This document shows positions 24,131 through 53,628 of a DNA stretch of 64,000 bases, in pieces. Source of the DNA: Frankia sp. AiPa1. GTDB lineage: Bacteria; Actinomycetota; Actinomycetes; Frankiales; Frankiaceae. The notes below the pieces were generated by a model that saw only the letters and a program-made list of their open reading frames with translations, was not told the DNA's origin and searched no databases. The DNA is taken from NCBI RefSeq assembly GCF_023243075.1, contig NZ_JALKFZ020000004.1, forward strand, positions 62,001-126,000. The letters are read 5' to 3'. How positions within the stretch are numbered: the stretch's first letter is position 1; the number at the start of each line of letters is the position of its first letter. The translations under genes were made by a program, and so were the position numbers.

Positions 24131-26083
24131 ATGACCGAAACTATTGTCAGTAATTCCAAGGCGGAGTCCGCAGAGAGAACGGCGGGCGACGCGGTGGAAT
24201 GGCCCGGTAGCGGCGAGCTGAGTGAAACAACGATCACCATCAACAATATCCGCACCCTCGCCAGGCATCCACAGGTACTGGCAGCGTCGAACTGGCCGCT
24301 CCGCGGCGTCCCGGTGGATGCGCGCAGTGCGGACGCCGAGAGCGCGGACGCGGACGGTGTAGGCGCGGGCGGTGCGGATACCGATGCCGATGCTCCCCTT
24401 CATGTCGCGGCCACCGCCCACGCCCCGTCCGCGGTGGAGGCCGTGTCCCGGACAGCTGGCCTGCTCGGGGCCGGTGGATTGGCCGAGACAGCCGACCCGT
24501 CGAGCGAAGCCCGACCGGTTCCCACTCAGCGGACGCGTACGCGGCCGATGGCGGTTCCGCCACCAGCGCTCCGCGACCCGGTCGAGCCGGACGACGCCGG
24601 TCCGGAGAAGGAGAAGCGGGCCGCGCTCGACCGGTACCGCGCCAGGGTGCCGTGGGAGCGCCGGTACGGCCTGATCCTCGCGGGTCTGGACGCCGCTGCC
24701 TGCGTTGTCGCCGCCGTGGCCGCCTACGTCGTCCGGTTCGGCGGCTTCGTGGAGTTTGACCTGAAGCCCGTCTCGGCGACGCCGTATCTGGTGATGTCGG
24801 TCGCGCTGCCGGTGGCCTGGGTGCTGGCGATGTTCCTCGGCCGGGCCTACGAGAGTCGGTTCCTCGCTGGCGGCTCGGAGGAATTCCGCCGGGTCCTCAA
24901 CGCGGCCGCGCACCTCACCGCGTTCGTGGCGCTGTTGTCGTATGCGACCAAGGCCGAGCTCGCCCGGGCCTATGTCCTGATCGCCTTTCCCACCGCGATC
25001 ATCCTGACCGTGCTCGGCCGCTGTGCCGCCCGCGGCTACCTGCACCGGATGCGCCGCGCCGGCCGCGGCATGCACCGCGTGCTGGTGGTCGGCTCCGGTG
25101 ACTCGGCGGCGGCACTGGTCCGGCTGTCACGGCGTGACCCGACCGCCGGCTGGACGGTCGTCGGCATCGTGCTTGACCGGCTGCCCGGCCGGCACAGCCA
25201 CGACTCCCCGGACCGCAGCGGCTTCGACCTGCTGGGCGTGCCCATCGTCGGCACCGCCGAGACTCTGCACAACGCGATCATCGCGACGAGCGCCACCACG
25301 GTCGCGATCTCCCCACAGATGGACGGCGAGACTCTGCGCCGGGTGCTCTGGACGCTCGAAGGCAGCGACGTCGACGTGCTTGTTTCCTCTGCGTTGACCG
25401 ATGTGACCGGCCCGCGGATCTCCATTCGACCGGTGGCGGGGCTCCCGCTGCTGCATGTCGAGGAGCCCGAGCTCACCGGCGCGCGCCGGGCGATGAAAGC
25501 CCTGTTCGACCGCAGCGTCGCGATCACGGTGCTGTTGCTGGCTTCCCCGCTGCTGCTGGCGCTGGCTCTGGCCGTGTGCCTGACCAGCCGCGGCCCGGCG
25601 ATCTTCCGTCAGACCCGGGTCGGCCGAGACGGCCGGCAGTTCACCATGTACAAGTTCCGCTCGATGTACGTCGACGCCGAGGCGCGCAAGGCTGAGCTTG
25701 AGGCACGCAACGAGCGGGCCGAGGGCCTGCTGTTCAAGATGCGCGACGACCCGCGGGTCACCCACGCCGGCAGGTTCCTGCGCAAGTGGTCGCTCGACGA
25801 ACTGCCGCAGCTGTTCAACATCGCGAACGGCACGATGTCGCTGGTTGGCCCGCGTCCACCGCTGCCCAGCGAGGTGGAGCAGTACGAGGACGAGGTGCAC
25901 CGCCGCCTGATGGTGAAGCCCGGACTCACCGGCCTGTGGCAGATCAGCGGCCGTTCGGATCTGGAATGGGACGAGTCCGTCCGCCTGGACCTGCGCTACG
26001 TCCAGAACTGGTCTCTGCTCATGGACTTCTACATCCTCTGGCGCACCGTCTTCGCTGTTCTGCGCCGGGAGGGCGCCTACTGA
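24131..26083 (+). CDS. Polyprenyl-phosphate glycosyl-1-phosphate transferase (priming enzyme, WcaJ/WbaP type)
   Basis: This initiates a lipid-linked glycan by moving a sugar-1-phosphate to undecaprenyl phosphate. After about 170 disordered Asp/Ala/Pro-rich residues come four membrane helices (from GLILAGLDAAACVVAAVAAY), a CoA-binding-like Rossmann domain (RVLVVGSGDSAAALVRLSRR), a fifth hydrophobic segment (VAITVLLLASPLLLALALAV) and the catalytic domain: FRQTRVGRDGRQFTMYKFRS, DELPQLFNIANGTMSLVGPR and KPGLTGLWQISGRSD. Length 650 exceeds the usual 460-500 because of the N-terminal extension, which has Ala-Asp repeats. GAGGGG about 10 nt upstream supports the ATG at 24131. It is the first gene of the glycan region. 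Confidence 0.95.
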   Translation: MTETIVSNSKAESAERTAGDAVEWPGSGELSETTITINNIRTLARHPQVLAASNWPLRGVPVDARSADAESADADGVGAGGADTDADAPLHVAATAHAPSAVEAVSRTAGLLGAGGLAETADPSSEARPVPTQRTRTRPMAVPPPALRDPVEPDDAGPEKEKRAALDRYRARVPWERRYGLILAGLDAAACVVAAVAAYVVRFGGFVEFDLKPVSATPYLVMSVALPVAWVLAMFLGRAYESRFLAGGSEEFRRVLNAAAHLTAFVALLSYATKAELARAYVLIAFPTAIILTVLGRCAARGYLHRMRRAGRGMHRVLVVGSGDSAAALVRLSRRDPTAGWTVVGIVLDRLPGRHSHDSPDRSGFDLLGVPIVGTAETLHNAIIATSATTVAISPQMDGETLRRVLWTLEGSDVDVLVSSALTDVTGPRISIRPVAGLPLLHVEEPELTGARRAMKALFDRSVAITVLLLASPLLLALALAVCLTSRGPAIFRQTRVGRDGRQFTMYKFRSMYVDAEARKAELEARNERAEGLLFKMRDDPRVTHAGRFLRKWSLDELPQLFNIANGTMSLVGPRPPLPSEVEQYEDEVHRRLMVKPGLTGLWQISGRSDLEWDESVRLDLRYVQNWSLLMDFYILWRTVFAVLRREGAY

Positions 26084-30385: not shown

Positions 30386-30500
30386 GATCGCGTGCCGTCA
30401 CCGGTGACGTGTCCGTTGCCGACGGGACCGGGCCGGGCCAGGTGATGTCGAACAGGTCTCGAGCCGCACAGGAACGACATCTATGCAGGGGGGCGACAGG

Positions 30501-31958
30501 ATGGGTGCGAGAACGGGCAAAGACTATCTGCGGGCTCTGGCCGATGACCGCGAGGTCTACCTCGACGGGGAGCGGGTCGACGACGTCGCCGCGCACCCGA
30601 GCCTGGCCGGAGCGGCGCGTACGCTCGCCGGCTTTTACGACTACCAGCACGAGCATCCTGACCTTCTGCTCGCCACCGACCCGGAGTCCGGCGAGCGGGT
30701 GCCGGTCACCCACCTCGTTCCCCGGTCTGCCTCGGGCCTCCGCCGCCGCCACGATGCGCTCGAGTGCATCTCCCGCTACACACTCGGCCTCATGGGACGC
30801 AGCCCCGACTACGTCAACGTCACCCTGGCCGGTTTCGCCGGGCGGACCGACGTGTGGTCCCGGGACGGGAACGACGAGGGGACCGCGAACCTGCTCGCCT
30901 ATCACCGGCAGACCATGCTCAACGACTGGTCGCTGACCCATGCGATCGTGAACGTCACCGTCGACCGTTCGATACCGGAGACCGCCACGGGCGATGGGCA
31001 GATTGCCGTCCACAAGGTCGCCGACACGTCCGGGGGCATCGTCGTGCGCGGAGCGCGGGCCCTGGCGACACTTGCCCCCTTTGCCGACGAACTGTTCGTC
31101 TATCCGGGATATCCGCTGATGGAAGGAGATGAGCGTTATGCGCTCGTCTTCGCCATTCCGATGTCTACCCCCGGTCTGAAGTTCCTCTGCCGGGACAGCT
31201 ACTCCGCTGCTCGCGGTATCGCGGATGCCCCGCTGTCGAGCCGGTTCGACGAGCAGGACGCCGTGGTTGTCCTCGACAACGTCGAGGTGCCGCGGGAACG
31301 GGTGTTCCTCGACGGCAAGGTCGACCTTTACAACCGTGTGATGCAGCGGGCCGGCTGGACCGCGAACATCATGCAGCAGACCACGATCCGCGCGATCACG
31401 AAGCTGCAGTTCGCCTGGGAGCTGGCGACTCGGATGACCGAGATCGTCAACAACACCAGCCCCGCGGCGACCGAGATGCTCGGCGAGATCTGGACCTATC
31501 TGGAACTCACCCGCTCGGCCCTTACTGCCGCTGAGGCCGGGGCACACGAGTGGGGCAGCGGCACCTGGTTCTGTGCCGAGCCCCCGTTTGCCGCGCTGCG
31601 TCCGACGCTGCCGCGTTGGTTCCCCCGCGTCGGCGAGATCATCAAGCTGCTCGGCGGGCACAGCCTGCTGACCACACCGACAAGCGCGGAGTTCGCCGAT
31701 CCGGCGCTGCGTCCGCTGATTGACCGCTATTACCAGGGCGCGAAGGGCGTCTCGGCCGAAGAACGGGCCGCGGTGTTCCGCCTGGCGTGGGACTTCGTCG
31801 GCACCGGCCTCGCTGGCAGATCCGAGCTCTACGAGCGGTTCTACCTGGGCTCCGCCGGTCGATTCCTGCAAGTGGCGCAGCGCACCGCCGTGCGGGGCAC
31901 CGATTTCGGGCTGCTCGGGTCGGCGCTGACGGCCGGTCGTGCCGAGGATCGGGCCTAG
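30501..31958 (+). CDS. HpaB-family FADH2-dependent aromatic monooxygenase
   Basis: The 485-residue protein matches the 4-hydroxyphenylacetate 3-monooxygenase (HpaB/HpaH) family across its length: TGKDYLRALADDREVYLDGE at the N terminus, DYVNVTLAGFAG, LTHAIVNVTVDRS, DNVEVPRERVFLDG in the acyl-CoA-dehydrogenase-like fold, and a C-terminal helical region ending SAGRFLQVAQRT. Family members hydroxylate phenols ortho to an existing hydroxyl (4-hydroxyphenylacetate, tyrosyl or coumaroyl groups) and need a separate flavin reductase, none of which is adjacent. GGGGGG 7 nt upstream favours the ATG at 30501 over one at 30483. The acyltransferase gene follows after 55 bp. Confidence 0.9.
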   Translation: MGARTGKDYLRALADDREVYLDGERVDDVAAHPSLAGAARTLAGFYDYQHEHPDLLLATDPESGERVPVTHLVPRSASGLRRRHDALECISRYTLGLMGRSPDYVNVTLAGFAGRTDVWSRDGNDEGTANLLAYHRQTMLNDWSLTHAIVNVTVDRSIPETATGDGQIAVHKVADTSGGIVVRGARALATLAPFADELFVYPGYPLMEGDERYALVFAIPMSTPGLKFLCRDSYSAARGIADAPLSSRFDEQDAVVVLDNVEVPRERVFLDGKVDLYNRVMQRAGWTANIMQQTTIRAITKLQFAWELATRMTEIVNNTSPAATEMLGEIWTYLELTRSALTAAEAGAHEWGSGTWFCAEPPFAALRPTLPRWFPRVGEIIKLLGGHSLLTTPTSAEFADPALRPLIDRYYQGAKGVSAEERAAVFRLAWDFVGTGLAGRSELYERFYLGSAGRFLQVAQRTAVRGTDFGLLGSALTAGRAEDRA

Positions 31959-32013
31959 CCGGTAGCACGATCTGACGTTTTCCGGTTCCATTCTGGGGAG
32001 GAGAGGGCCGCAT

Positions 32014-33432
32014 ATGCGGACCCGAATCTCGGCGGCAGACCGGCTCTGGCTGCCGTATGCGACAGTGCGCCTGTTCGGCCCGGTCGAGGTGCCCACAGCC
32101 GACCAGCTCATGGATGCGCTGGACCGGTTCGTCGCGCAGCGGCCCCGGCACCCGATGGCCTGCACCATCGACGCGGCCGCCGGGCGGTGGCGCCCCGTCC
32201 CGGCAGCGCAGCGCGGCGCGCACGTCGCGCGCATGCTCCACGTGCTGCCCGCAGGCACCGCCCCCGCACTGGCAGGTGGTTTTGACTCCGTGCCTTTGGG
32301 CCATTCTGTGGTGCCTTTGGGTCATTCTGTGCTGACGGGTGGTATCGCGCAGGCAGCGGACGAGCTGCTGCGGACTGACACCGGCGAGCTGCCGCTGCGG
32401 CTGGTCGTCGGGGGGCAGTACTTCGGGTTCGTCATGGCGCATGCGCTCGGTGACGCCGCGTCGGCAAACCTGATCGTTGAGGCAGCACTCGGCTGCGCCC
32501 ACGACCCCGACGCGCTCCTGCGCGTACCGCCCCCGCGGACCAGTCGAGCGCTGGTCAGGCTGCTGGCGCGGCAGGTCGTGCGACGGCCGGGCAGTCTGTT
32601 GCGGATCGCTCGGGACAGGTCCCGTGACCTGGACCCCGAACCACCGCTGGCGGGGCCCGTACCGGCTCCAGCCTGCGCGGTCATCGCCGGGCGCACGACG
32701 AACGCGGTACTGCCGGCGCTGCGCACCTGGCGCGACGCGCACGCCCCGGGGCTGTCAGTGGCGACTCTCATGTGCTGGGTGGCGCGCAAGGCACTCGGTG
32801 AGGCGGGGGCCGCTGTTCGCGACGATGGTCTCATCATGCTGGTTGACCTGCGACGCTATGGGTCCGGGCGGCGCGACCTCGCCGGCAACCTGGCCTTGGG
32901 TGTCGCCGTCCACGCTCCGCAACAGGCTGGTCCGACCGCGGTCCAGACCGCGGTCGGCGAGCTGCTCGGCTCGGCTCGGCCGGTCACAGGCGCTCTGGTG
33001 GGGGTTGTGAACGAGGCGCGCCGACGGCGTCCCGGTAGTGGCGCAGAGAGCGGGGGACCACTCGCCCCGCCGCCGGGCCGGGCGACGGTGTTGGTCACCT
33101 ATCTCGGGCGGGCCGCAACAATGCGCGGAGTGAGGTGGCGAGGGTCCGCGGTCGAACGTGAACTTGTCGTCGGGACAACGCCCGGAAGTGTGGGTGATAT
33201 CACGCTCGTGATGACCGAGATCGACGATGTTCTGCACCTGTCGATCATATTTCACGAGAGTCGTCATCCCCGCTGGATGATGCAGCGTTCCCTCGAGTTG
33301 TTGACCAACCCTGTCCAGTTGCTTGACGGCGCAGCCCAGTCCGGTGTCACCGAGCCCTCCTCGGACCCCGCGGACGGATCTGACCGCATTGTGGCAACTA
33401 CTGGTGGCGGAGTGGGGGTAATTCGACCGTGA
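32014..33432 (+). CDS. Condensation/PapA-like acyltransferase (HxxxD)
   Basis: The protein (472 residues) has the catalytic motif HALGD at 143-147 after the strand QYFGFVMA, the arrangement seen in condensation domains, PapA-type and wax-ester-synthase-like acyltransferases. A second half with LSVATLMCWVARKAL, then RRDLAGNLALGVAV (an N-x-x-G-like segment), and VGDITLVMTEIDDVLHLSII fits the two-lobed fold. Such enzymes transfer an acyl group from CoA or a carrier protein to an alcohol or amine. A strong GGGGAGGAGAGG lies upstream of the ATG. A 21-bp duplication gives VPLGHSV twice. A role in acylating a glycan or aromatic product with the neighbouring HpaB protein is inference. Confidence 0.7.
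   Translation: MRTRISAADRLWLPYATVRLFGPVEVPTADQLMDALDRFVAQRPRHPMACTIDAAAGRWRPVPAAQRGAHVARMLHVLPAGTAPALAGGFDSVPLGHSVVPLGHSVLTGGIAQAADELLRTDTGELPLRLVVGGQYFGFVMAHALGDAASANLIVEAALGCAHDPDALLRVPPPRTSRALVRLLARQVVRRPGSLLRIARDRSRDLDPEPPLAGPVPAPACAVIAGRTTNAVLPALRTWRDAHAPGLSVATLMCWVARKALGEAGAAVRDDGLIMLVDLRRYGSGRRDLAGNLALGVAVHAPQQAGPTAVQTAVGELLGSARPVTGALVGVVNEARRRRPGSGAESGGPLAPPPGRATVLVTYLGRAATMRGVRWRGSAVERELVVGTTPGSVGDITLVMTEIDDVLHLSIIFHESRHPRWMMQRSLELLTNPVQLLDGAAQSGVTEPSSDPADGSDRIVATTGGGVGVIRP
32290..32331 (+). repeat. 21-bp tandem duplication inside the acyltransferase gene
   Basis: Two 21-bp copies with one difference encode VPLGHSV twice in succession, before the catalytic HALGD motif. The frame is preserved. 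Confidence 0.9.
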
Positions 33433-34254
33433 AACGGTATGATCGTGTCACGGATGGGGTCGGATCCGCGTTCCCGCAGGCGCTCACCTAACTATTCTGT
33501 TACTCCAGGCGAACATCCGGGGAATGCTTTCATGTCGGTGTCGGCTGGTGGTAGCCTGGCCACGGGTGCAGTCGGAGAGGGCTGTGGCCGCGCAAGTACT
33601 CGATGGATGCCACTCCGGGTGGAGCCACTCCGGGTGGATGCCGGTACTGATGGATTCCAGTGCTTGATGGGTGTGAATGCCTGGCGAGTATGAACGTCTG
33701 GCAAGGCTGCGCGTGACAAACGCGGGCGCGTCTCAAAGTGAGCAGGGGGGAACCGGCTGACTTCACAACGGCGGGCGAGCCTCGGGTGATCGAGGCCATG
33801 GGCCTCGGCGTCGGGAGTGACATGCCAATCCCGGGGGTATGCCCGATGGCATGTGATCATTTTCTCTCCGCTCTCTGAGGACAGACTTCGCCGTCGCCTC
33901 CGAGTGGCATGAAGCTTTCTGCCGTCGCGCCTCCCTGAACCGACGGTGGGCCGCCACGCGAGTGCATCCTGGTGTCGTTCGATGCCCCGGCCGCAGTAAA
34001 GAGGCTCATCTCCTGCGGTGTTCCCGAAATTTCCTCGGTGATCTTTCTGCAGGCTTTCGAGTGTCGTTATCTGTGTGCTGGTCACAAACAGGCGGGGGGC
34101 ACGGTATGGAGACAACTCTCAGCGCCGGAGAGGACATCCGGCATACGAACCGCCGACGTTCCGGAGCGGAAGCCGCCGAGCGGGGCGGTGTGCCCTTTTG
34201 GACCGGCCCGGCCCGGTGGCGCCGGCGGACCTGGTGATCATCGTGCACGCCTTC
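33433..34254. other. 820-bp stretch without a supported gene
   Basis: I see no convincing gene. It is less GC-rich than its flanks. It contains an exact 15-bp tandem duplication (33609-33638) and a 7-bp hairpin CGAGGCC-ATG-GGCCTCG at 33791-33807. It separates the HpaB/acyltransferase pair from the tyrA-led transcription unit and probably holds that unit's promoter. Confidence 0.5.
33609..33638. repeat. Exact 15-bp tandem duplication
   Basis: GCCACTCCGGGTGGA occurs at 33609-33623 and 33624-33638. Each unit contains a CCAC...GTGG inverted repeat, so each could fold or bind a dimeric protein. Confidence 0.85.
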
Positions 34255-35457
34255 ATGCACGACCAGTCAGCCCCTGCAACGAGTGATCCGGCTGCCGGCC
34301 GGTCGCTGGCCCAGCTCCGCGTGCTTGTCATCGGCTCGGGGCTGATCGGCACATCCGTCGGCCTCGCCCTGCGCCGCCACGGGACGGACGTTCTACTCAC
34401 CGACCATCTGCCGGAGCGCGCCGCCCGGGCTGCGGCCCGTGGTGCCGGGCGGGTCTGGTCGGCGTCCGCCGAGCATGTGGGCGCACTGGTTGGTGCCGTC
34501 GGTGGCGCGGGCGCAGGTGCGGTCGTGCCCCGGCAGAAGACCGCCGAGCCGGGTAAGCCCACGGTGCCCGCCGGCGCGGCCGCGGACCCGGCAGTCGTCG
34601 ATCATGCCTCGATCAACCCGGACCTGATCAACCCCGGCGTGATGGATCCCAGCCTGATTGACCATGCGATGATCGACGGTGCCACGATCGATCATGTCGT
34701 GCTTGCCGTCCCGCCCAGCCGTATCGGCGCGGTGCTGGCCGCCTGGCAGCGACGCCTGCCGGCCGCCACGTTCAGTGACACCGGGTCGGTGAAGGTTCGC
34801 CCGATCATCGATGCTCAGGAGCTCGGCGCCGACATGTCGCGGCTGTGTGGGGCGCATCCGATCTCCGGCCGGGAGCACAGCGGGCCGGACTGGGCCACCG
34901 CGGACCTGTTCGCCGGACGTCCCTGGGTGCTTACCCCGACCCTCGAGACCTCCGAGCGCGCCGTCCGGCATGCTCGTCTGATTGTCTCCGGCTGCGGCGC
35001 CCAGGTCATCGAGATGCGTCCGGAGATGCACGATGTCGCTCTCGGGCTGCTCAGCCATCTGCCCCACGTGGTGGCGAGCGTGGTCGCCTCCCGGCTCGTG
35101 GGGGTGCCGGACGAGATCGTTCGGCTGGCCGGCCCGGGCCTGTGGGACTTCACCCGGATCGCGGCGGCCAACGCCGACCTGTGGTCCGACATCGTCGTCG
35201 CGAACGCGAGTCCCCTGTCCGCGCTGCTCGCCGAGGTCGTCGCTGATCTTGGCCGGCTACAGGCAGCGTTGAGCGCGCTGGGCGCCGGGGACGTGAACGT
35301 CCGCTCCGAGGTCGAGCACCTGTTCCGGCAGGGAAACACAGGACGCGACCGACTGGTGACCGCCAACGCCGGTAGAGGGATCGTGCCGGCGCCCGCGCCG
35401 CCCCCGGTGGCGGAACGCGGGACCGACGAGGAACGGCCGGAGGCCCGAGTGCCATGA
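34255..35457 (+). CDS. tyrA: Prephenate dehydrogenase with pentapeptide-like insertion
   Basis: The NAD-binding fold begins LRVLVIGSGLIGTSVGLALR and continues with DHVVLAVPPSRIGAVL, TFSDTGSVK, CGAHPISGREHSGP and the helical C-terminal domain (LLSHLPHVVASVVA, then LWDFTRIAAANADLW), all typical of TyrA. It oxidatively decarboxylates prephenate to 4-hydroxyphenylpyruvate for tyrosine. Between the fingerprint and the LAVPP strand is an extra segment of about 60 residues; residues 114-148 are seven pentads such as SINPD, LINPG, LIDHA and TIDHV. No ACT domain is present. The start is uncertain (ATG at 34255, GTGs just upstream). It overlaps the next gene by 4 bp and leads the glycan gene chain. Confidence 0.88.
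   Translation: MHDQSAPATSDPAAGRSLAQLRVLVIGSGLIGTSVGLALRRHGTDVLLTDHLPERAARAAARGAGRVWSASAEHVGALVGAVGGAGAGAVVPRQKTAEPGKPTVPAGAAADPAVVDHASINPDLINPGVMDPSLIDHAMIDGATIDHVVLAVPPSRIGAVLAAWQRRLPAATFSDTGSVKVRPIIDAQELGADMSRLCGAHPISGREHSGPDWATADLFAGRPWVLTPTLETSERAVRHARLIVSGCGAQVIEMRPEMHDVALGLLSHLPHVVASVVASRLVGVPDEIVRLAGPGLWDFTRIAAANADLWSDIVVANASPLSALLAEVVADLGRLQAALSALGAGDVNVRSEVEHLFRQGNTGRDRLVTANAGRGIVPAPAPPPVAERGTDEERPEARVP
34594..34698 (+). repeat. Seven degenerate 15-bp units encoding pentapeptides inside tyrA
   Basis: Units of 15 bp encode x-I-(D/N)-x-x pentads (residues 114-148). The centre of each unit reads ATCGA-, ATCAA- or ATTGA-. The frame is kept throughout. Confidence 0.8.
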
Positions 35458-35672
35458 CCCTGACCATGTCCCCGATCGATACCCCGATCGATACCCCGAT
35501 CCAGGCACCGATTCAGACGCCGACGCAGACCGCGTTGCAGACCTGGTCCGAGATCCCGACACAGGCCTCGATGCGGACCTCAGCCCAGACCCCGCAGGGC
35601 CGTGACGCCAGAAACCGTCACGGAATCCGGAACGTCATGTCCACTCGTAGCCACAATGGGGGCCCAAGATGA
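35454..35672 (+). CDS. Small Pro/Thr/Gln repeat protein coupled to both neighbours
   Basis: This 72-codon frame starts at an ATG overlapping the tyrA stop (ATGA) and ends at a TGA overlapping the next ATG (ATGA), so it is linked by 4-bp overlaps on both sides. That double coupling is the main evidence that it is translated. The sequence starts MTLTMSP, then runs PIDT, PIDT, PIQA, PIQT, PTQT from five 12-bp DNA repeats (35472-35531), then becomes Gln/Thr/Arg-rich and basic. No signal peptide, helix or known domain is seen, and function is unknown. It may serve only to couple translation of the glycosyltransferase to tyrA. Confidence 0.55.
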   Translation: MTLTMSPIDTPIDTPIQAPIQTPTQTALQTWSEIPTQASMRTSAQTPQGRDARNRHGIRNVMSTRSHNGGPR

Positions 35673-36589
35673 CGCAGCAGTCCATATCCGAGCGAGGCCA
35701 ACCGATAGCGCCTGACAGCGCTTCCGGGCCCGCCGTCAAACTGTCCGTCATCATGCCCGTCTACAACGAGGAAGCGACCGTCGCGCGGGCCATCCGGCGG
35801 CTGCTCGACACCATCTACCCGTGCGAGGTCGAGCTGGTGGTGGTCGACGACGGCAGCACCGACACGACACCGCTGCTGCTCGAGGGCATCTCCGACCCGA
35901 GGATGCGGGTGCACCGCCACCTTTCCAACTTCGGCAAGGGCGCCGCGGTCCGCAGCGGGGTGCGACTGGCCACGGGCACACACGCCCTCGTCTTCGACGC
36001 GGATCTGGAGTACGCCCCGACGGACATTCCGGCGATGCTCGCGCCGGTCATCGCCGGGCGCTGCTCGTACGTGTACGGCGCCCGCCAGTTCGGCAACCAC
36101 ACGATCTACCCATCCTTCTGGTTCGCCCTCGGCAACAAGGTGACGACCTTCGCCGCCAACCTGTTGTTCGACGCGTTCCTCACCGACCTGCACACCTGCC
36201 TCAAGCTCGTGCCCCTCGACGAACTGCGGGCGATGAGCCTGCGTGAGCGTGGTTTCGGCCTGGACACCGAGCTGACCGCGAGCCTGCTCAAGCGGGGCGT
36301 GCGCCCCTTCGAGGTGCCGGTCAGCTATTACGGCCGTTCGCACGCCGAGGGAAAGAAGATTCAATGGCAGGACGGGGTCGAGTGCCTGCGGATTCTGCTG
36401 CGGGTCCGGCTGCGCGGCGATGGGGATGACGTGGTGGTCCCGCTGCCCGCCACCGCCGTCCCGCCGACGCGGGCCATGGTCGCGATGCCGTCCCAGCCGA
36501 CCCGCGGTCGGGCGAGTAGCGCGGACACCTCCGATCTCGACTTCACTGGCGTGGTGGGCGGCGGCGTTCTGCGGTCGAGCCGACCGTGA
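35669..36589 (+). CDS. Family 2 glycosyltransferase (dolichol-phosphate-mannose-synthase-like)
   Basis: The GT-A domain shows LSVIMPVYNEEATVARAI (about 25-42), VVVDDGSTDTT, NFGKGAAVRSGVRLATG and VFDADLEYAPTDI, the DXD-type site. The C-terminal part (RGFGLDTELTASLLKRGVRP, then PVSYYGRSHAEGKKI) is typical of DPM1/polyprenyl-phosphate glycosyltransferases. It likely charges a polyprenyl phosphate with a sugar on the cytoplasmic face. There is no C-terminal membrane domain; the tail is Pro/Ala/Arg-rich. It overlaps the upstream small gene and the downstream acyltransferase by 4 bp each. Confidence 0.9.
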   Translation: MTQQSISERGQPIAPDSASGPAVKLSVIMPVYNEEATVARAIRRLLDTIYPCEVELVVVDDGSTDTTPLLLEGISDPRMRVHRHLSNFGKGAAVRSGVRLATGTHALVFDADLEYAPTDIPAMLAPVIAGRCSYVYGARQFGNHTIYPSFWFALGNKVTTFAANLLFDAFLTDLHTCLKLVPLDELRAMSLRERGFGLDTELTASLLKRGVRPFEVPVSYYGRSHAEGKKIQWQDGVECLRILLRVRLRGDGDDVVVPLPATAVPPTRAMVAMPSQPTRGRASSADTSDLDFTGVVGGGVLRSSRP

Positions 36590-37854
36590 CGGAGACTCGG
36601 CGGGAGCCTGCGGCAGGCCACGCTGACAGCTCCGGCCGCCACATTGCCGGACTGGACGGGATGCGTGCGCTCTCCGTCATCGCCGTGCTCCTCTACCATC
36701 TGGACCTGCTCGGCGGTGGCTATGTCGGCGTCGATGTGTTCTTCGTGCTCAGCGGGTTTCTGATTACCGGTCTGCTGCTGGCCGAGTGGAACACCCGGGG
36801 CCGCATCTCCCTGCGTGCCTTCTATGTCCGCCGGGCGTTCCGGCTCCTACCCGCGTTCTACGTCTACGCGCTGCTGGGCGTCGCGTTCGTTCTGGTGGTT
36901 GGGGCCGAGGGGGGCTTGGGCGAGTATTCCGGTGGCCTGGCGAGCTCCGTGTTCGCGGTGAACAACGTGCACCGTGTCGTCGATCTTGACGGGGGTGGCG
37001 TATGGTTCGGCCAGACCTGGTCGCTGTCGGTCGAGGACCAGTTCTACTTCCTCTGGCCGGCCCTGTTCATTCTGCTGGTCGGGGCAAGCCGGCGCCGGCC
37101 GAGGGTCGGTGTTCTGCCCGTCCTCGCCGGCGCCGTCGTCGTGGTCGCGCTCTGGCGCATCGCGCTCGTCCTGATCGGCGTGGGCGGTCCCCGGATCTAC
37201 CTCGGCCTGGACACGAGGGCCGACAGCCTCCTGGTCGGCGCCGCGATGGCCGTGTGGTTCGCGGGTGCGCGCGCCCATCCGACCTCGGCGAGCGCGGTCC
37301 GGTGGAAACGGCTCGGCATCCTCGGTCTGCCGGCCGGTGCCGCGTTGATTGTCTTTGCCTTCCTCGGGCCCGAACCCGGTCCGGCTGAACCGACCTGGAT
37401 GGCCTGGGGCGGCTACACCCTGATTGCGCTGCTGTCCGGCGTGGTAGCCACGAGCGTGGTGAGCCAGCGCGGGCCACGGCTCTGGCTGCGGCTGCTGGAC
37501 AACCGGGCGATGGTCCGTCTCGGCCGGATCTCCTACGCCTTCTACCTGTGGCATTTTCCGGTCTGCGACATCGCGAAGCAGCACGTGGACTCGCGTTTCG
37601 GCCCGGTTGCCATGGTGGTTTTCGCCCTCGCGGCGACCTATTCGCTCGCGTGGCTGTCGGCGCTGCTGGTCGAACGGCCCGCCGCCCGTCGCCGGCCCCG
37701 CTGGGCTGATGTCGGCGCGCGTTTCCCGGGCCTGGCTCCGGAACCCATCGAGGTCGTACCACCCCGTGCGGCAGCCGCCGCGGACACCTTCCCGCTGTCC
37801 CCGTCGCCGCTGTCCCTGTCGGCCCTGCCCTCGTCACCGAGGAACGTCACGTGA
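36586..37854 (+). CDS. Acyltransferase-3 (OafA/YrhL) membrane O-acyltransferase
   Basis: The signature GLDGMRALSVIAVLLYHLDL (residues 23-42), then YVGVDVFFVLSGFLITGLLL, the RAFYVRRAFRLLP loop and TWSLSVEDQFYFLWPALF identify an AT3 integral membrane acyltransferase. About ten hydrophobic helices follow. These enzymes add acetyl or other short acyl groups to exported glycans, lipids or antibiotics. Length 422 is normal. The C terminus ends in a Pro/Ser-rich tail. It is joined to the preceding glycosyltransferase gene by a 4-bp overlap. Confidence 0.9.
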   Translation: MTETRREPAAGHADSSGRHIAGLDGMRALSVIAVLLYHLDLLGGGYVGVDVFFVLSGFLITGLLLAEWNTRGRISLRAFYVRRAFRLLPAFYVYALLGVAFVLVVGAEGGLGEYSGGLASSVFAVNNVHRVVDLDGGGVWFGQTWSLSVEDQFYFLWPALFILLVGASRRRPRVGVLPVLAGAVVVVALWRIALVLIGVGGPRIYLGLDTRADSLLVGAAMAVWFAGARAHPTSASAVRWKRLGILGLPAGAALIVFAFLGPEPGPAEPTWMAWGGYTLIALLSGVVATSVVSQRGPRLWLRLLDNRAMVRLGRISYAFYLWHFPVCDIAKQHVDSRFGPVAMVVFALAATYSLAWLSALLVERPAARRRPRWADVGARFPGLAPEPIEVVPPRAAAAADTFPLSPSPLSLSALPSSPRNVT

Positions 37855-38205
37855 ACCTGGCCGTACTTCGGTCCGCGTACGAGAACCTCTGCCGGATTTG
37901 TCCCGATGATGGCATCCCGATGGCTGTGCGGTGAAGACGTCCTTCTGCTGGCCGGCGGTTTCCCGATGACCTGTTTCCCGATGACCAAGTATGGACCACG
38001 GAGCGCGTCGTTGGATGACCTCGCGTACCCCACATTCCAGCGGGTGACCGTGTCAGGCTTGCTGCGGTATGCCTACGCTTTTCCGGTAGGATGGAAGCGC
38101 TGACCGGCATGGCGGGGGCGCGCGAAGGGGGGCGGCTGTGTCCAGCGATATGGCTAGCGTCATGGCTAGCGTCATAGCTAGCGCTGTGGCTGGCAGGCGA
38201 TCCAC
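37855..38205. promoter_or_regulatory. Intergenic region with two tandem repeat arrays
   Basis: About 350 bp without a gene. A 15-bp unit GTTTCCCGATGACC(T/A) is duplicated at 37958-37987, and four 12-bp units lie at 38150-38197. It probably contains the promoter of the 38.2-kb gene and the downstream glycosyltransferase genes. Confidence 0.55.
38150..38197. repeat. 12-bp tandem repeats with spaced GCTAGC palindromes
   Basis: ATGGCTAGCGTC is repeated exactly at 38150 and 38162, then as ATAGCTAGCGCT at 38174 and GTGGCTGGCAGG at 38186. Three GCTAGC palindromes are spaced 12 bp apart, ending just upstream of the next start codon. Confidence 0.85.
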
Positions 38206-38691
38206 ATGGAGCTTCGCGCGTGTCGATCTGAGCTGCCGATGGCGGTGATATCCAGGGTGCGCCGGCATCCGGTTGTGCTGATTCCGGTCGTGGTTCTGCT
38301 GCTGGTCATTGTGGGCGTCGTAGCCGGGCGGTCGGGTGGGATGCGTCACCAGCTCTCACTGTCGTTCACTCGGCAGGACCCCCCTCTGACGGAGCTCTAC
38401 TTCAACCGTCCTGACCTGATTGCCGCGGCCGGGCAGGGATCCTTTCCGCAGCCGTTGACCTTCGCCGTCCGAAACGACAGTGAGCAGGCTGTTACCAAGG
38501 ATTACTCGGTCTCGCTGCGTTCCGGGTCGAACGTGCTACAGAAGTACACTGGAATCGTTCAGGTGGCCGGCCGGAAGACCACCACCAGTACCATCTCCCT
38601 CGTCGCTCCTCAGGGGGCCAAGGATTACACGGTCTCCGTCGTCCTGACTGAGAGTAATCAAACCATCTTCTTTCATGGCACCGTTCACTGA
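38206..38691 (+). CDS. Membrane-anchored protein with extracytoplasmic beta domain
   Basis: I do not recognise a family. A membrane helix (HPVVLIPVVVLLLVIVGVVA, about 21-40) follows a short basic start. The remaining 120 residues look like an Ig/CARDB-type beta sandwich: PLTFAVRNDSEQ, then KDYSVSLRSGSNVL, GRKTTTSTISLVAP and KDYTVSVVLTESNQTIFF. It would sit outside the membrane and could bind or guide the exported glycan, which is inference from location only. The start may be ATG 38206 or ATG 38239. It is 28 bp from the next gene, so they may be cotranscribed. Confidence 0.65.
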   Translation: MELRACRSELPMAVISRVRRHPVVLIPVVVLLLVIVGVVAGRSGGMRHQLSLSFTRQDPPLTELYFNRPDLIAAAGQGSFPQPLTFAVRNDSEQAVTKDYSVSLRSGSNVLQKYTGIVQVAGRKTTTSTISLVAPQGAKDYTVSVVLTESNQTIFFHGTVH

Positions 38692-38719
38692 CGCGCTGCC
38701 TGGATGGGCGTGAATCGTC

Positions 38720-40174
38720 ATGCTGTTTGGTCACAGTAGTATCATCACCAGATCGCCCGGGGGCAAGCGGATTGCGTTCGTCAGTGATGCGGTCATGCCG
38801 TTCAACAAAGGCGGCAAGGAAAAACGCCTCGACGAGGTCGCCAGGCGGCTCGCCGCTGCTGGCCACGTCGTCGACGTGCACACGATGGCCTGGTGGCCGG
38901 GGCGTCGTCCGCTGCGCTCCGGCGAGCTGACGATGCACGCGCTTTCGCCGCGGATGCCGCTGTACAGCGGTACCCGCCGTTCGATGCGGCAGGCCCTGGT
39001 CTTCGGTCTGGCCACCTCGCGGCTGTTGTTCCGCCGGTTCGACGTTGTCGACGTCGACCACATGCCGTTCTTCCCGCTGTTCACCGCCCGGATGGTCTGT
39101 GCGCTTCGACGCAAGCCCATGGTGGCGACCTGGCACGAGGTGTGGGGGCGGGAGTACTGGCGCACCTACCTCGGCCCGCTCGGGGAGATCGCAGCCCTGA
39201 TCGAGCGGCTCGCCGTGCGGATGCCCCATCACATCGTCGCCGTCTCCGAGCACACCGCCGAGCGCCTGCGCGGCCTGCTCGGTGCCACCTGCCCGATTAC
39301 GACGATCCCGCTCGGGGTCGATCTCGCGCTCATCGACCAGGTCGAGCCCGCACCGCACGGTCCCGACGTGCTGTTCGTCGGGCGGCTGCTCGCCAACAAG
39401 AACGTGGACGTCCTGCTCACCGCGCTCGCCCAGGTGGAGCGGGAGACGGGCCGCCGCCTGACCTGCAGCATCGTCGGTGAGGGCCCCGAGTTGGGCGGCC
39501 TGCGCAACCTGGCCGGGCGGCTCGGCCTCGCCGAGCGGGTCACCTTCGCCAGCAACCTCTCCTATGCCGAGCTCTACGGCCAGATGAAGGCCAGCGGCGT
39601 GTTCGCGCTCCCGTCCATCCGCGAGGGGTTCGGCCTGGTCGTCCTCGAGGCCAACGCCTGCGGTGTCCCGGTGATCACCACGCGGCACCCGGACAACGCC
39701 GCGCGTCACCTGATCGACGAGGGGCGCAACGGCACGCTCGTCGACCCGCACGACGCCGCCAGCCTTGCCCGGGCGATCGTCACAGTCCTGGACACCCGTG
39801 CCTCGCTGTCTCCTCGCGAGCACCTTGACGCCCTGGAGCCCCGGCCCGACTGGGCCTCCGTCGCCGCCGCCGTCGGCAGTGTCCTTGTCGGCGAGGCCCT
39901 GGTCGACGAGGCCCGCATCGGCGCGATCACGCCGGTGGCTCCGTCCGCCGCCGTCCCCATCCCAGCGCAGGCCGCGCCGCCCGTGCCAGCCGCACGAGCC
40001 GCAGCCGTTCCTGCCGTCTCCGTCGCGCCTGTCACCTCGGTTGCACCTGTCACATCCACATCCGTCGGACCGGTTGGACCGGTCACCCCAACCGCTGCGG
40101 TGGCGCCGGTCATGCCCGTCCCGGCACCTCGCGAGGAGGCGGCCCTCGTGCTCGACGCCGAGGAGCCCTCGTGA
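38720..40174 (+). CDS. Family 4 glycosyltransferase
   Basis: Two Rossmann-like domains are evident: KRIAFVSDAVMPFNKGGKEK at the N terminus, then HHIVAVSEHTAERLRGL, DVLFVGRLLANKNVDVLLTA and the nucleotide-sugar site FALPSIREGFGLVVLEANAC (E-x7-E). It transfers a sugar from a nucleotide donor with retention. The C-terminal 80 residues are an Ala/Pro/Val/Thr-rich low-complexity tail with PVTSVAPVTS-type repeats. Start ATG 38720. It is separated by about 90 bp from the deacetylase gene. Confidence 0.92.
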   Translation: MLFGHSSIITRSPGGKRIAFVSDAVMPFNKGGKEKRLDEVARRLAAAGHVVDVHTMAWWPGRRPLRSGELTMHALSPRMPLYSGTRRSMRQALVFGLATSRLLFRRFDVVDVDHMPFFPLFTARMVCALRRKPMVATWHEVWGREYWRTYLGPLGEIAALIERLAVRMPHHIVAVSEHTAERLRGLLGATCPITTIPLGVDLALIDQVEPAPHGPDVLFVGRLLANKNVDVLLTALAQVERETGRRLTCSIVGEGPELGGLRNLAGRLGLAERVTFASNLSYAELYGQMKASGVFALPSIREGFGLVVLEANACGVPVITTRHPDNAARHLIDEGRNGTLVDPHDAASLARAIVTVLDTRASLSPREHLDALEPRPDWASVAAAVGSVLVGEALVDEARIGAITPVAPSAAVPIPAQAAPPVPAARAAAVPAVSVAPVTSVAPVTSTSVGPVGPVTPTAAVAPVMPVPAPREEAALVLDAEEPS

Positions 40175-40262
40175 CCGTGTCCGTCCCCACCGCGGCGGTC
40201 GGCCCGGCCCGCGTGCCGACCGACACGCTGACCGCGTCCGCCGGCGGAAGGAGCCGTTTCTC

Positions 40263-40991
40263 GTGAGTGCGACCACCCCGGCTGTCTGGGTGACGACCAG
40301 CTGGGATGACGGGCACCTGCTCGATCATCGCGTGGCGCGGCTGCTGGCCGCCTATGACCTCCCGGGCACGTTCTACGTCGCGCCGCGCTCCGCGGACATC
40401 GCCCCCGAGCTGCGTCTCGGTGACCGGGGCGTGCAGGAGTTGGCCGAGCGGTTCGAGCTGGGCGGCCACACGCTGACCCACCGCAGACTGCCCGAGATGT
40501 CCGCGGACGAGGGGCGCGCCGAGGTCGTCGCCGGCAAGGACACCCTGGAGCAGCTCATCGGCGCCGAGATCACCAGCTTCGCCTACCCGTGGGGCGCCCA
40601 CGGCCCCGACGATCTGGAGACCGTGGCGGCGGCCGGGTTCACCTACGCCCGGACCGTCCACCGCTTCGACACCACCCTGCCGGCCCATCCGCTGGCCGCG
40701 CGAACCACCGTGCACGCCTACCGGCACCTGAGTGACCTGCCGCGCCTGGCCATCCGGGCCGAGGTGACGCCGCGTCGCCGGGCGCGCCTGATGGCCGAGT
40801 GGGACGCGCTGGCCATCCATCTGTTCGACGAGGTCGCGCGCACCGGTGGGGCCTACCACCTGTGGGGGCACAGCTGGGAGATCGACAGGTTCCGGTCCTG
40901 GAAGCGGCTGGAGCGGGTGTTCGAATACATCTCGCGCCGTAAGGACGTCCGGTACGTCAACAACGGCGAGCTGGTCGGAGCGACCGGGTGA
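40263..40991 (+). CDS. Polysaccharide deacetylase (NodB homology domain)
   Basis: The 242-residue protein has canonical motifs: TTSWDDGH (Asp15, Asp16), GGHTLTH with the metal ligands His69 and His73, and ITSFAYPWGAHG. There is no signal peptide, suggesting action on a cytoplasmic nucleotide- or lipid-linked sugar. GGAAGGAG about 10 nt upstream supports the GTG at 40263; the frame is open much further upstream inside the previous gene, without conserved content. It overlaps the next glycosyltransferase by 4 bp. Unlike the homologue at 5.2-6.3 kb, its motifs are intact. Confidence 0.9.
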   Translation: MSATTPAVWVTTSWDDGHLLDHRVARLLAAYDLPGTFYVAPRSADIAPELRLGDRGVQELAERFELGGHTLTHRRLPEMSADEGRAEVVAGKDTLEQLIGAEITSFAYPWGAHGPDDLETVAAAGFTYARTVHRFDTTLPAHPLAARTTVHAYRHLSDLPRLAIRAEVTPRRRARLMAEWDALAIHLFDEVARTGGAYHLWGHSWEIDRFRSWKRLERVFEYISRRKDVRYVNNGELVGATG

Positions 40992-42223
40992 CCGGGACGG
41001 CCCCCCGGGCTGGCGTGGTGCCCGTGGCGCAGGTGGTGTCCTATTACCCCCCGCACCTCGGCGGGATGGAGAAGGTTGCCGAGATCATCGCGGCCGAGCT
41101 CGCGGGTACCCGCCCGTCGACGGTTCTTACCACCCGGGTGGGTGCGGCCGGCGAGCCACACCTGGTGCGCCGCGGGAACCTGACGGTGCGCCGATATCCC
41201 GCATTCGAGGCGGCGCACACCCCGTTCGCTCCCGGTCTGCTGGCGGGCCTGCTGGGCCTGCCGCGGCGCGGTGTCGTGCACGTCCACGTCGCGCAAGTGC
41301 TCGTCCCGGAACTCGTCTGGCTGGCCTCCCGCCTGCGGGGCTGGCCGTTCGTCGCGCACTTCCACCTGGACGTCGACCCGTCCGGACCGCTCGGCGCCTT
41401 GTTCGTCGCCTACAAGAAGCTGCTGCTTGGCCGCACCCTGCGCGCCGCCGACCGGGTGCTCGTGCTCTCGCCTGAGCAGGCCGAGCTGGTCCGCGGCCGC
41501 TACCAGGTCCCCGAGGCGCGGATCGCGGTGATTCCGAACGGCGTGGAGGTCGCCTACTTCGATCTCGCCGCCGAGCGTTTCGCCCGCCTGGAGCCGAAGG
41601 CCGCCGACCGCGCCGAGGCCGGCGACACTGCTGGCGCTGCTGGCACCGGTGTGGCAGCTGACCTTGCTGCCGGGACGAGCCAGGTGCCCGAGGCGGAGCC
41701 GACGCCGATGCGGTTGCTGTTCGTGGGGAGGCTCGCGTCGCAGAAGAACGTGCCGCGCCTCGTCGAGGCGATGGCGCTGGTGCGCGGGCCGGTCGAACTG
41801 GTCGTGGCCGGTGACGGCGAGGACCGCGGCGCCGTCGAGGCGCTGGTGGCCGAGCGTGGGCTGACCAACGTACGGCTGGTGGGCGGCCAGTACGGCGCGG
41901 ATCTGCTCGGCTGGTATCGCTGGGCGGACGCGTTCGCCCTGCCCTCGGAGAAGGAGGGCGTGCCGCTGGCGATGCTGGAGGCGATGGCGGCTGGACTCGC
42001 GGTGCTGTCCACGGACGTGCCGGGCTCCCGTGACCTGCTCGGCGACGCCGGGCTGCTCGTCGCGCCGGACGCCGCACACATCGCCGCGGGGATCGACGCG
42101 CTCGCTGCCGACCCCGCCGAGCGGCTGCGGCTGGGCCGGCGCGCCCATGCCCAGGTCGCCGACCGACGCTGGCCGGACCTCGTCGAGCAGATCGCCAAGA
42201 TCTATGCGGACGTGACGCGGTGA
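40988..42223 (+). CDS. Family 4 glycosyltransferase
   Basis: The protein (411 residues) begins AQVVSYYPPHLGGMEKVAEI, followed by GVVHVHVAQVLVPELVWLAS, ADRVLVLSPEQAELVRGRY, RLLFVGRLASQKNVPRLVEA and the donor site FALPSEKEGVPLAMLEAMAA. It resembles PimB/PimA-like retaining glycosyltransferases. An Ala/Gly-rich spacer of about 40 residues lies between the two domains (about 200-238). The start GTG overlaps the deacetylase stop. It is the second gene of a six-gene chain of 4-bp overlaps. Confidence 0.93.
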   Translation: MTGTAPRAGVVPVAQVVSYYPPHLGGMEKVAEIIAAELAGTRPSTVLTTRVGAAGEPHLVRRGNLTVRRYPAFEAAHTPFAPGLLAGLLGLPRRGVVHVHVAQVLVPELVWLASRLRGWPFVAHFHLDVDPSGPLGALFVAYKKLLLGRTLRAADRVLVLSPEQAELVRGRYQVPEARIAVIPNGVEVAYFDLAAERFARLEPKAADRAEAGDTAGAAGTGVAADLAAGTSQVPEAEPTPMRLLFVGRLASQKNVPRLVEAMALVRGPVELVVAGDGEDRGAVEALVAERGLTNVRLVGGQYGADLLGWYRWADAFALPSEKEGVPLAMLEAMAAGLAVLSTDVPGSRDLLGDAGLLVAPDAAHIAAGIDALAADPAERLRLGRRAHAQVADRRWPDLVEQIAKIYADVTR

Positions 42224-45200
42224 GACGTCGCGGCGGCCACAACTCGGCGGAACAGGACACGCTGCGGATCATCCTGGGCCCAGAGGCGGCCGAGCTCGCC
42301 ACTCGGCCGATGGTCCGCCCAGACCACGCGCGTCCCGAGTCCGCGTCCCGAGAACCGGCCGCCGCGAGCGCGCCCCCCTCCGCGCCTACGAGCGACAGCA
42401 CCACGATGCTTCTCACTGTGATCCGACCATCGGACGACGACGGCGACCCTGAGCCCGAGCCGGCCTCCGAATCCGTCGACCCGGCGCGTACCCCGACCGC
42501 CGGCGCCGGTCCGCCCTCCGCCAGAGGCTCGGCACCCCGAAAGCCGGCACCCCGAAAGCCAAAGGGATGGCCCGAGGACTCGCTGGCGCTGGAATCGCCC
42601 GAGCCCGTGCCGGCGGTCCCAGCCTCGCCGAAACCTGCCTCGCCGAAGTTGGCGTCGCACGGCGCGGGGTCGTCGGCTCGGGGGTCGTCGACCGGGGAGC
42701 CGCCCGCCCGGCGGCCGGGCGAGCCACGCCGACCGCGGTGGTGGCGCAACGCCGATCTGCTGGTCGGGCTGAGTGGGCTCGCCGCGGCGGCGCTTGTCGC
42801 GCTCAACCCGGGGCTTGGACCGGTGGTCTTCCTCGCTGGGGTCTGGTTCGTCCTGGGTCTGCCGACCGCGCAGCTCTACGCCAAGGCGCCCTGGTCGACA
42901 GCGGACGTCGTCGAGCGGATCGCCTACAGCCTGGTCTCGACCCTGCTCATGCTGATGGTCGGCGGCCTGATCGTCAACACCGTGCTGCCCCTGGCCGGAG
43001 TGGACCGTCCGCTGGACCGGCTGCCGTTGTTCGTCACGCTGCTGGTGGTCAACGGGGCGCTGGCGCTCTGGCGGCGGGCCCGTTGGCGGGAGCTCGCCCG
43101 TACGGCCGGCGCGACCCTGGCCTGGCCTGGACGTCGCTCGGTGACGATCATCGTCGCGGCGGCGCTGTCCGTGGGTCTGGCCGTGGTCGGCGCGATCCGG
43201 CTCAACAACGGCGCCGGCGGCGGCGTCGTGCTGTTCATGCTGTTCTACGCCGCGGTCGTGCTGACCCTGCTCTACGTCTGGAACAACCGGCTTGGCCCGG
43301 GAACCGTCGCAACCGTGATCTATTTCATCGCGGCCGCGATGCTGCTGATGACCTCGCTGCGCGGCTGGTATGTCACCGGCCACGACGTCCAGCGCGAGTA
43401 CGCCGTGTTCGAGCTGACCAGCGGTTTCGCCGACTGGAGCATGGCGCGCTACCCGGATGCCTACAACGCCTGCCTGAGCATCACGATCCTGCCGACGGTG
43501 CTGGCGCGGCTCACCCGGATCTTCGATCCCTATGTTTACAAGCTGCTGTTCCAGCTGCTGTTCGCCTACACCGCGGTCGCTGTCTACCGGATCACTCGGC
43601 GCTTCCTGTCCAACCTGTTGGCCATCACCGCGGCGATCTACTTCCTGGCGTTCCCGACCTTCTTCACCGACATGCCGTTCCTCAACCGGCAGGAGATCGC
43701 GTTCCTGTTCGTCGGCGCGGCCCTGCTCGCGGTCACGAACGCGGGGATCTCCCGGCGCCGTCGGCAGGTGATGCTCGCGGTGTTCTCCGTCGGGATGGCG
43801 CTGTCGCACTATTCGACGACCTACTTCTTCCTCGGCGTGCTCGCCTGCTACCTGTCGCTTCGGGCGATCTCCGGTCCCGTGGGCCGAGTCACCCGCTGGC
43901 TGGGGCCGCGGATCCCGGTCCGGGACGGGCTGCGGCCGCGCCGACGGCCCCATGTGGCGGATGGATCGCCAGTGTTCGCGGCCGCGGCGCGGCCTGCGCC
44001 CTCGCCGGAGCTCGCGCCCTCACCCGACGAACCGTGCGAACAGGACACTCCCGAGCCCAGGGCGGGCGCGCTCGCGCTGCCCGGCCTGCTGGGGGTCCTC
44101 ATCCGCCGCCCGCGGTTCCTGTCTCGGCTGCCGGTCCTGCGCCGCCGCCGCGGCCAGGCTGACCGAGCGGGCCGCCCGCGAGGCGGCCGGCCGGTCGTGG
44201 GCCTGGCCAACGTCGCGTTCCTCGCCGTCGTCGTCGTGATCTGGACCGGTGCGATCACCGGGACGTCAGGCGGCGTGGCCATGACGCTCAAGGAATCGAT
44301 CGGCGGCCTCGTCGGCAGCAGCGCATCCGAGTCGAAATCGTCGGACGTGTCGTACAGCCTGGTCGGGTCCGGGGCGGTCGACCCGGCACAGCGGCTGGCG
44401 GCCTACCGGGCGGTGACCCTCGCCCAGACCGGTGGGACGAACCGGGCGCAGATCTACTTCAGCACGCAGGAGCTGGACCGCTACCCGACGCGGCTCGTGC
44501 CGGTCCAGACCCTGCCGACCGGCCCGGCGGGCCGGGTGCTGGACTCGGTCGGCTTCCCGACTGACGCCCTGAACACCCTGCTGCGCCAGGGTGCCGCCCG
44601 GATGCTTCAGCTGTTCGTCCTGATCGGACTGATCGCCGCGCTGGTGAACAGCAGGCGGCGCGGTTTCCGGCCGAGCCGGGAGTACTTCCTGCTCGCCTGT
44701 GGCAGCTTCGCCATGCTGGTCGGTCAGGTGGTGCTGCCGGCCCTGTCGGTCAACTACGGCATTCTTCGGGCATTCCAGCAGGGCTTGTTCACCCTTGGGC
44801 CGTTCCTGGCCTGGGGAAGCGTGGCGGTGTTCCTCCGGTTCGGCCCGCGGTTCGCCGTGCGTGCCGCCGCCGGGGTCGCTCTGCTGTTCTTCCTGTCGCT
44901 GACCGGCTTCTTCTCGCAGCTGCTCGGCCGATATCCGGCGCAGCTGAACCTGAACAATGCCGGGACGTATTACGACATTTATTACACGCATCCGCAGGAG
45001 ATCGCCGCCGCGGACTGGCTCAAGGCCGTCATGAAACAGTATCCCGCCAGTTCCGGTGGAACGGCCGCGCAGACCGATATATTCTCGAGGGACCGGCTGA
45101 ACACCGCGACCGGACTTCCCCTCGAGGACGGGCTGTACCCGACCCAGCTGCGCCGGGATCTCTACCTCCTCGTCGGAACGTCCGTGGTCAGGACCGGGGA

Positions 45201-46763: not shown

Positions 46764-46791
46764 GCGGGCAGACGAAGGAGATGCGACGCGC

Positions 46792-53504: not shown

Positions 53505-53616
53505 GACCGTGGCCCACGCGGCTGTCTCGGCCGCAGCTAGGCATCCTGACCGGCCGCTTCCATCGGGTACCCGAAAGGAGCCACCCATCGCTGCCGCGTA
53601 GCCGACGCCGGTGGCC

Positions 53617-53622
53617 TATGGT
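53617..53622 (+). promoter_or_regulatory. Candidate -10 box of a leaderless LOG gene mRNA
   Basis: TATGGT precedes the GTG at 53629 by 6 nt. Confidence 0.4.
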
Positions 53623-53628
53623 GCCGGG

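Follow-up and report, generated by a model that had tools for sequence, protein, structure and literature searches.

The 64,000-nucleotide stretch of Frankia sp. AiPa1 analyzed here (contig NZ_JALKFZ020000004.1, positions 62,001 to 126,000; hereafter, the window) carries an aromatic cassette composed of hpaB, a second tyrA and the E1alpha-E1beta-E2 genes of a 2-oxoacid dehydrogenase. The comparative analysis gives good support for an aromatic acyl cassette, and we consider it on balance probable that these five genes constitute a dedicated system, predicted to make an aromatic acyl-CoA from prephenate and to deliver its acyl group as an ester to an alcohol. This unit differs from the trio outlined in an earlier, sequence-only reading of the window, which missed the E1/E2 set and included a gene encoding a protein with an HALGD motif (the HALGD gene) that is not part of it. 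The genome (G000, with the window on its contig C143) belongs to genus g1 of the Frankiaceae, spans 6.98 Mb and is 88.5% complete. The cassette genes are the following:

30483..31958, + strand: hpaB-like gene, encoding the oxygenase component of a flavin-dependent phenol hydroxylase (Pfam HpaB_N/HpaB; PDB 2yyk/2yyg)
34255..35457, + strand, frame open from 34075: second tyrA, encoding a prephenate dehydrogenase (Pfam, PDB, clade with the cassette copies)
49614..50747, + strand: 2-oxoacid dehydrogenase E1alpha (Pfam E1_dh 2.3e-71; adjoins tyrA in four relatives)
50744..51931, + strand: 2-oxoacid dehydrogenase E1beta (Pfam Transket_pyr and Transketolase_C; clade with four tyrA-linked copies)
51963..53504, + strand: 2-oxoacid dehydrogenase E2, with lipoyl, E3-binding and catalytic domains (Pfam)

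Conservation of the cassette and its components

Homologs of HpaB with 78-79% identity were detected in four of the 57 other genomes searched, corresponding to four of the eight genomes searched in the Pseudofrankia group (genus g6), and a class-wide draw of 392 other genomes returned matches at E 1e-90 in the same four. The gene order tyrA-E1alpha-E1beta-E2-hpaB is contiguous in all four relatives (G021, G030, G032 and G033). Two WS/DGAT genes lie beside tyrA in each of them (Pfam on the G021 copies), and an MFS gene is found near the cassette in three, the stretch from the fourth ending before that place; here and below, the names of neighboring genes outside the Pfam-scanned proteins were read by eye. 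The analysis also identified, in G006 (genus g1), a hpaB fragment cut by a contig edge (first 94 matched residues, 62% identity) and located three genes away from the LOG gene pair that borders this interval in the window.

The HpaB domains span the full length of the window protein (HpaB_N 5.7e-84, HpaB 7.4e-44), which is the only PF03241 match in its genome and has 4-hydroxyphenylacetate 3-hydroxylase as its best PDB match (2yyk/2yyg, E about 1.8e-85). Residues R106, Y110 and H153, which align with 2yyg and which we take to fall on catalytic positions, are kept in the cassette copies and in two mycobacterial relatives.

The tyrA frame (34075-35457) encodes PDH_N (1.4e-24) and PDH_C (6.4e-16) domains. 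Its likely start is the ATG at 34255, just 5' of the GxGxxG segment, the gene caller having picked the GTG at 34216. The PDB relatives of the product are prephenate dehydrogenases, and the HP, SVK and DFTR segments of the solved enzymes are kept in it. The nucleotide-binding domain of the protein (34255-35457) also contains an insert, very roughly 70 residues long. The sequence-only reading had called for a check on a second tyrA elsewhere in the genome, and one was found on contig C121, encoding a protein 41% identical to the window TyrA in a housekeeping-looking context (between genes that by eye resemble rluB and cmk, plsC and der, in the same order in G001). The possibility that the window tyrA is the sole housekeeping copy was hence rejected. 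In a TyrA tree of 30 rows (the window and C121 copies, the four cassette copies and 24 of the 25 loci L054-L078, L059 having no row), the window copy and the four cassette copies form a group with 100/100 support on a long stem, and the C121 copy clusters with other Frankia sequences (100/100). A different second tyrA was observed in G010 (L128:3-15816) beside a large nonribosomal peptide synthetase gene and MbtH-like, hydroxymandelate-synthase-like and Dpg-like genes (by eye), as in glycopeptide-type clusters.

The 2-oxoacid dehydrogenase encoded in the window comprises E1alpha, E1beta and an E2 with lipoyl and E3-binding domains. An E1beta tree with 33 of the 40 collected rows (duplicates dropped; G007 absent, its match being in two pieces) places the window copy with the four tyrA-linked copies (100/99).

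A related set beside prephenate dehydratase

The neighboring clade in the E1beta tree contains 18 Frankiaceae rows (100/99) and corresponds to the E1beta copy located beside prephenate dehydratase (pheA). Among 19 Frankiaceae loci (the 18 clade rows and G007), pheA adjoins E1-E2 in 15, with a Pfam check on two, and in the other four (G002, G007, G009 and G012) the contig stops right next to E2. The loci combining pheA with a dedicated E1/E2 set are L129:6590-11630, L133, L137, L140, L141, L162-L165, L168 and L170-L174. Outside the Frankiaceae, pheA was found beside related E1-E2 genes in none of the four loci examined. The E1beta clades and their neighborhoods therefore indicate that one E1/E2 clade pairs with the second tyrA and the other with prephenate dehydratase. 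Comparison of the tyrA-linked and pheA-linked E1 proteins (21 rows each) revealed 16 fixed differences in E1alpha and 19 in E1beta.

A WS/DGAT gene is located close to pheA-E1-E2 in five of the 19 loci (G010, G013, G025, G028 and G031), and about 10 kb away in G019. Two dehydratase genes are present in 11 of the 13 g1 genomes, with one in G007 and G012. In the genome of the window, contig C181 (L181:464-6033) encodes a WS/DGAT protein that shares 53% identity with the pheA-linked one; an MFS gene and, by eye, a gene resembling that for lipoamide dehydrogenase (E3) lie nearby.

The glycan locus and the HALGD protein

The cassette genes of the window stand around a glycan locus resembling the Wzx/Wzy type, in which the priming transferase, flippase and glycosyltransferases (GTs) are all present (Pfam), with a DUF2206 membrane protein as the sole polymerase candidate. 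The features of this locus are as follows:

24131..26083, + strand: priming sugar-phosphate transferase of the glycan locus (Pfam Bac_transf 9.1e-68)
32014..33432, + strand: HALGD protein, likely a distant HxxxD acyltransferase (H143/D147 invariance, hhalign, neighborhoods)
35454..35672, + strand: 72-codon open reading frame (ORF), probably not a gene (codon score, no Pfam match)
35669..49142, + strand: glycan block, in the order GT2, acyltransferase-3 (AT3), small ORF 38206-38691 with no Pfam match, GT4, polysaccharide deacetylase, GT4, DUF2206 protein, flippase, GT4, GT2 (Pfam)

Genes resembling dapD and dapE, together with the priming transferase, lie 5' of the hpaB region. At the downstream end of the interval, E2 is followed by a pair of LOG-family (Lysine_decarbox) genes at 53611-55430, overlapping by 4 bp. 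Between hpaB and the priming transferase gene, the minus strand carries a GH5-like cellulase gene (26716-28401), and a gene weakly similar to it (24%) was also observed in the G001 glycan locus (L190).

As the sequence-only reading described, hpaB, the HALGD gene and tyrA share the + strand between the priming transferase and the glycosyltransferase chain (Pfam, ORFs). That reading had also considered tyrA to be coupled to this chain through 4-bp overlaps. ORF 35454-35672 does share 4 bp with tyrA and another 4 bp with the GT2 gene, but the coupling was not confirmed, because this 72-codon ORF is repetitive, has no Pfam match and scores 0.027 per codon, versus 0.35 for hpaB, GT2 and AT3. The distance from tyrA to GT2 without it is 211 bp, and the gap between the HALGD gene and the ATG at 34255 is 822 bp. 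ORFs 33439-33693 and 35454-35672 were also considered as possible carrier protein genes and rejected, given that neither has a Pfam match and that their codon scores are -0.141 and 0.027.

The HALGD gene (32014-33432) is an open frame with a single HxxxD motif, HALGD, at residue 143. Its product has no Pfam or NCBIfam match, returned a single chance hit (E 0.57) when searched alone against PDB and no match when searched as a 16-row profile, and yielded a single-sequence structure model with a predicted local distance difference test score (pLDDT) of 34.5, too low for use. H143 and D147 are invariant in all 16 rows of the family alignment A1, which holds 16 of the 17 collected proteins (one of the two L122 copies was left out, and the fused L116 protein is absent). 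An hhalign comparison of this family against WS/DGAT rows gave a probability of 85.8%, with the HxxxD motifs lining up. The protein is hence likely to be distantly related to acyltransferases. Of its earlier description as a condensation/PapA-like acyltransferase, the HxxxD motif holds across the family, but a match to a Pfam family does not.

Homologs of the HALGD protein are encoded in 22 of 58 genomes, its own included, and in five of the 13 g1 genomes. Neighborhoods were taken from 16 loci, a subset of the genomes with a match, and in 12 of these a gene no more than four genes away matched a glycosyltransferase, the priming transferase or the flippase of the window by BLAST; L109 presents a GT2-like gene by eye, and L120-L122 none. 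The HALGD gene adjoins dapE in G006, lies one gene further off in G001 and shares a contig with a LOG gene in G004 and G008. Most members of the family are thus encoded in glycan loci of Frankiaceae, whether or not the cassette is present. Given that the cassette of the four relatives does not include the HALGD protein, and that glycan loci lacking the cassette do encode it, the protein is a regular part of glycan loci and not a cassette member. At L116:9412-12315, one frame fuses a flippase-like N-terminus (by eye) to a HALGD-family domain, as might be expected if acylation and export were linked.

The four relatives present a different setting. No window glycan protein matched at 1e-8 within 20 kb around the cassette (the deacetylase was not a query), and further flanks were also devoid of glycan matches (14 + 16 kb in G021, 18 kb in G033, 19.5 kb in G030 and 16 kb in G032). 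Conversely, no match to the relatives' WS/DGAT or MFS proteins was detected in the window at 1e-15. The expectation that hpaB, the HALGD gene and tyrA would be retained together in relatives thus holds for hpaB and tyrA in four of 57 genomes, but the HALGD gene is not in the cassette there and glycan genes were not matched nearby.

Proposed pathway, alternatives and related systems

From the gene families, neighborhoods, clades and copy numbers observed, we infer all reactions, the stage at which hydroxylation occurs and the acceptor as follows. TyrA, by its family function, would convert prephenate to 4-hydroxyphenylpyruvate, and the dedicated E1/E2 complex, with an E3 encoded elsewhere, would carry out its oxidative decarboxylation to 4-hydroxyphenylacetyl-CoA. 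HpaB would add a second ring hydroxyl before or after the E1/E2 step, yielding a 3,4-dihydroxyphenylacetyl (catechol) group, and an HxxxD acyltransferase would then move the aromatic acyl group to an alcohol. In the Pseudofrankia group this enzyme is probably a neighboring WS/DGAT protein, and in the genome of the window, where no WS/DGAT match was found in the window, it may be the glycan-locus HALGD protein, placing the aromatic ester on an exported glycan or a lipid carrier. The cassette would then mirror, on the tyrosine side, the phenylalanine-side pheA-E1-E2 genes found in Frankia relatives, the predicted source of phenylacetyl-CoA there. The most economical assumption for the product is an acyl group derived from tyrosine, possibly a catechol.

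Several observations weigh against this pathway. The glycan block separates tyrA from E1alpha, leaving the E1alpha-E1beta-E2 set 14 kb downstream of the hpaB/tyrA part. HpaB reaches neither of two NCBIfam equivalog cut-offs (348.9 of 480.2 and 226.3 of 885.2 bits), so that its earlier assignment to the HpaB monooxygenase family stands on both Pfam domains and the R/Y/H positions but extends only to HpaB-like, and TyrA falls below its best NCBIfam cut-off (245.6 of 294 bits). No flavin reductase gene was recognized for HpaB, although no search was aimed at one. On the question of whether HpaB groups with catabolic enzymes, its nearest relatives are the cassette copies, and the next, at 56-57% identity in two mycobacteria, have catabolic-looking neighbors by eye. 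The solved relatives of E1beta act, by their PDB names, on pyruvate or branched-chain 2-oxoacids. In G006, neither a second tyrA nor a tyrA-clade E1beta was detected in the 85%-complete assembly. The closest homologs of the second Pseudofrankia WS/DGAT protein (57% in G008, 55% in G001) are encoded away from any cassette gene, and the genome of the window holds only homologs 37-40% identical to it. Lastly, G014, G017, G021 and G036 also carry two dehydratase genes, so a second copy is not confined to genomes that hold the pheA-linked genes.

The acceptor may be either a glycan or a lipid. The sequence-only reading proposed a glycan or glycolipid bearing a tyrosine-derived, possibly catechol, group. 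The aromatic part of that proposal is upheld by the cassette, in which hpaB and the second tyrA are kept together with E1/E2, but the glycan is weakly suggested as target, by gene position in essentially one genome. It is a possible, though doubtful, alternative that the product of the cassette is an aromatic lipid or a small aromatic compound for export, for example a hydroxyphenylacetyl hopanoid, a wax ester, a signal or an iron ligand, and that the position of the cassette around the glycan genes reflects insertion into a variable locus with no functional link. The WS/DGAT and MFS neighbors of the cassette in the four relatives, and the lack of matches to window glycan queries near it, are consistent with this alternative, as is G001, in which glycan genes like those of the window and a member of the HALGD family occur but hpaB has no match. 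The two halves of the cassette, however, bracket the glycan block in the window, and in G006 hpaB again lies near the LOG genes flanking this interval. Unlikely, and to be regarded as speculative, is a specific version of a glycan target, in which 3,4-dihydroxyphenylacetyl-CoA from a private TyrA-E1/E2-HpaB route would be esterified to the glycan by the HALGD protein, generating a catechol-bearing exopolysaccharide or glycolipid and hence a metal-binding, oxidizable and possibly cross-linking surface polymer. Least credible is a catabolic role for HpaB and E1/E2, or their action on other substrates such as branched-chain 2-oxoacids, with tyrA as a spare copy and an accidental grouping: the mycobacterial HpaB relatives, the substrates of the solved E1beta relatives and the missed HpaB cut-offs would fit such a role, but the five genes stand side by side in four other genomes, TyrA and E1beta have a common history distinct from that of the other copies, and prephenate dehydratase accompanies E1/E2 in the next clade.

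No paper on this gene combination turned up in the literature searched. The window HpaB resembles the 4-hydroxyphenylacetate 3-monooxygenases of T. thermophilus (2yyg) and E. coli (6qyh) in both domains and in the R/Y/H positions, and differs from them in scoring below the equivalog cut-offs and in lying in a biosynthetic-looking cluster with no visible reductase. An HpaB-type hydroxylase near an HxxxD enzyme resembles the pair SgcC (4oo2) and SgcC5 of C-1027 biosynthesis. In contrast to that system, no carrier protein match was found among the proteins scanned around the window hpaB, and E1/E2 suggests a CoA ester instead; C-1027-like carrier-bound chemistry was set aside on account of the missing carrier protein match. 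Natural-product clusters such as those for glycopeptides (Pdh) and scytonemin also carry an extra tyrA supplying 4-hydroxyphenylpyruvate, whereas the window tyrA is paired with its own 2-oxoacid dehydrogenase.

A further parallel is found within Frankia itself. Phenyl-acetate hopanetetrol is reported to be present in the vesicle envelope (PMC4139986, citing Berry 1993) and phenylacetic acid has been found in Frankia-infected nodule cells (PMC4139986); in the parts of the literature consulted, no gene is assigned to either. We infer a link between the former and the pheA-E1-E2 set: phenylacetyl-hopanetetrol is an aryl-acetyl ester from the same bacterial family, in which a related E1/E2 lies beside a prephenate-consuming enzyme with WS/DGAT nearby in some loci. 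Relative to the window cassette, this set has a dehydratase instead of a dehydrogenase, and no hpaB. Together, the two sets suggest that the Frankiaceae have a private route leading from the shikimate pathway to aryl-acetyl-CoA, in phenyl and hydroxyphenyl versions. Of these, the phenyl version is a candidate supplier of the acyl group of the vesicle hopanoids, as phenylacetyl-CoA, and of nodule phenylacetic acid; from the hydroxyphenyl version, esters of the catechol type are predicted in this strain and the Pseudofrankia group.

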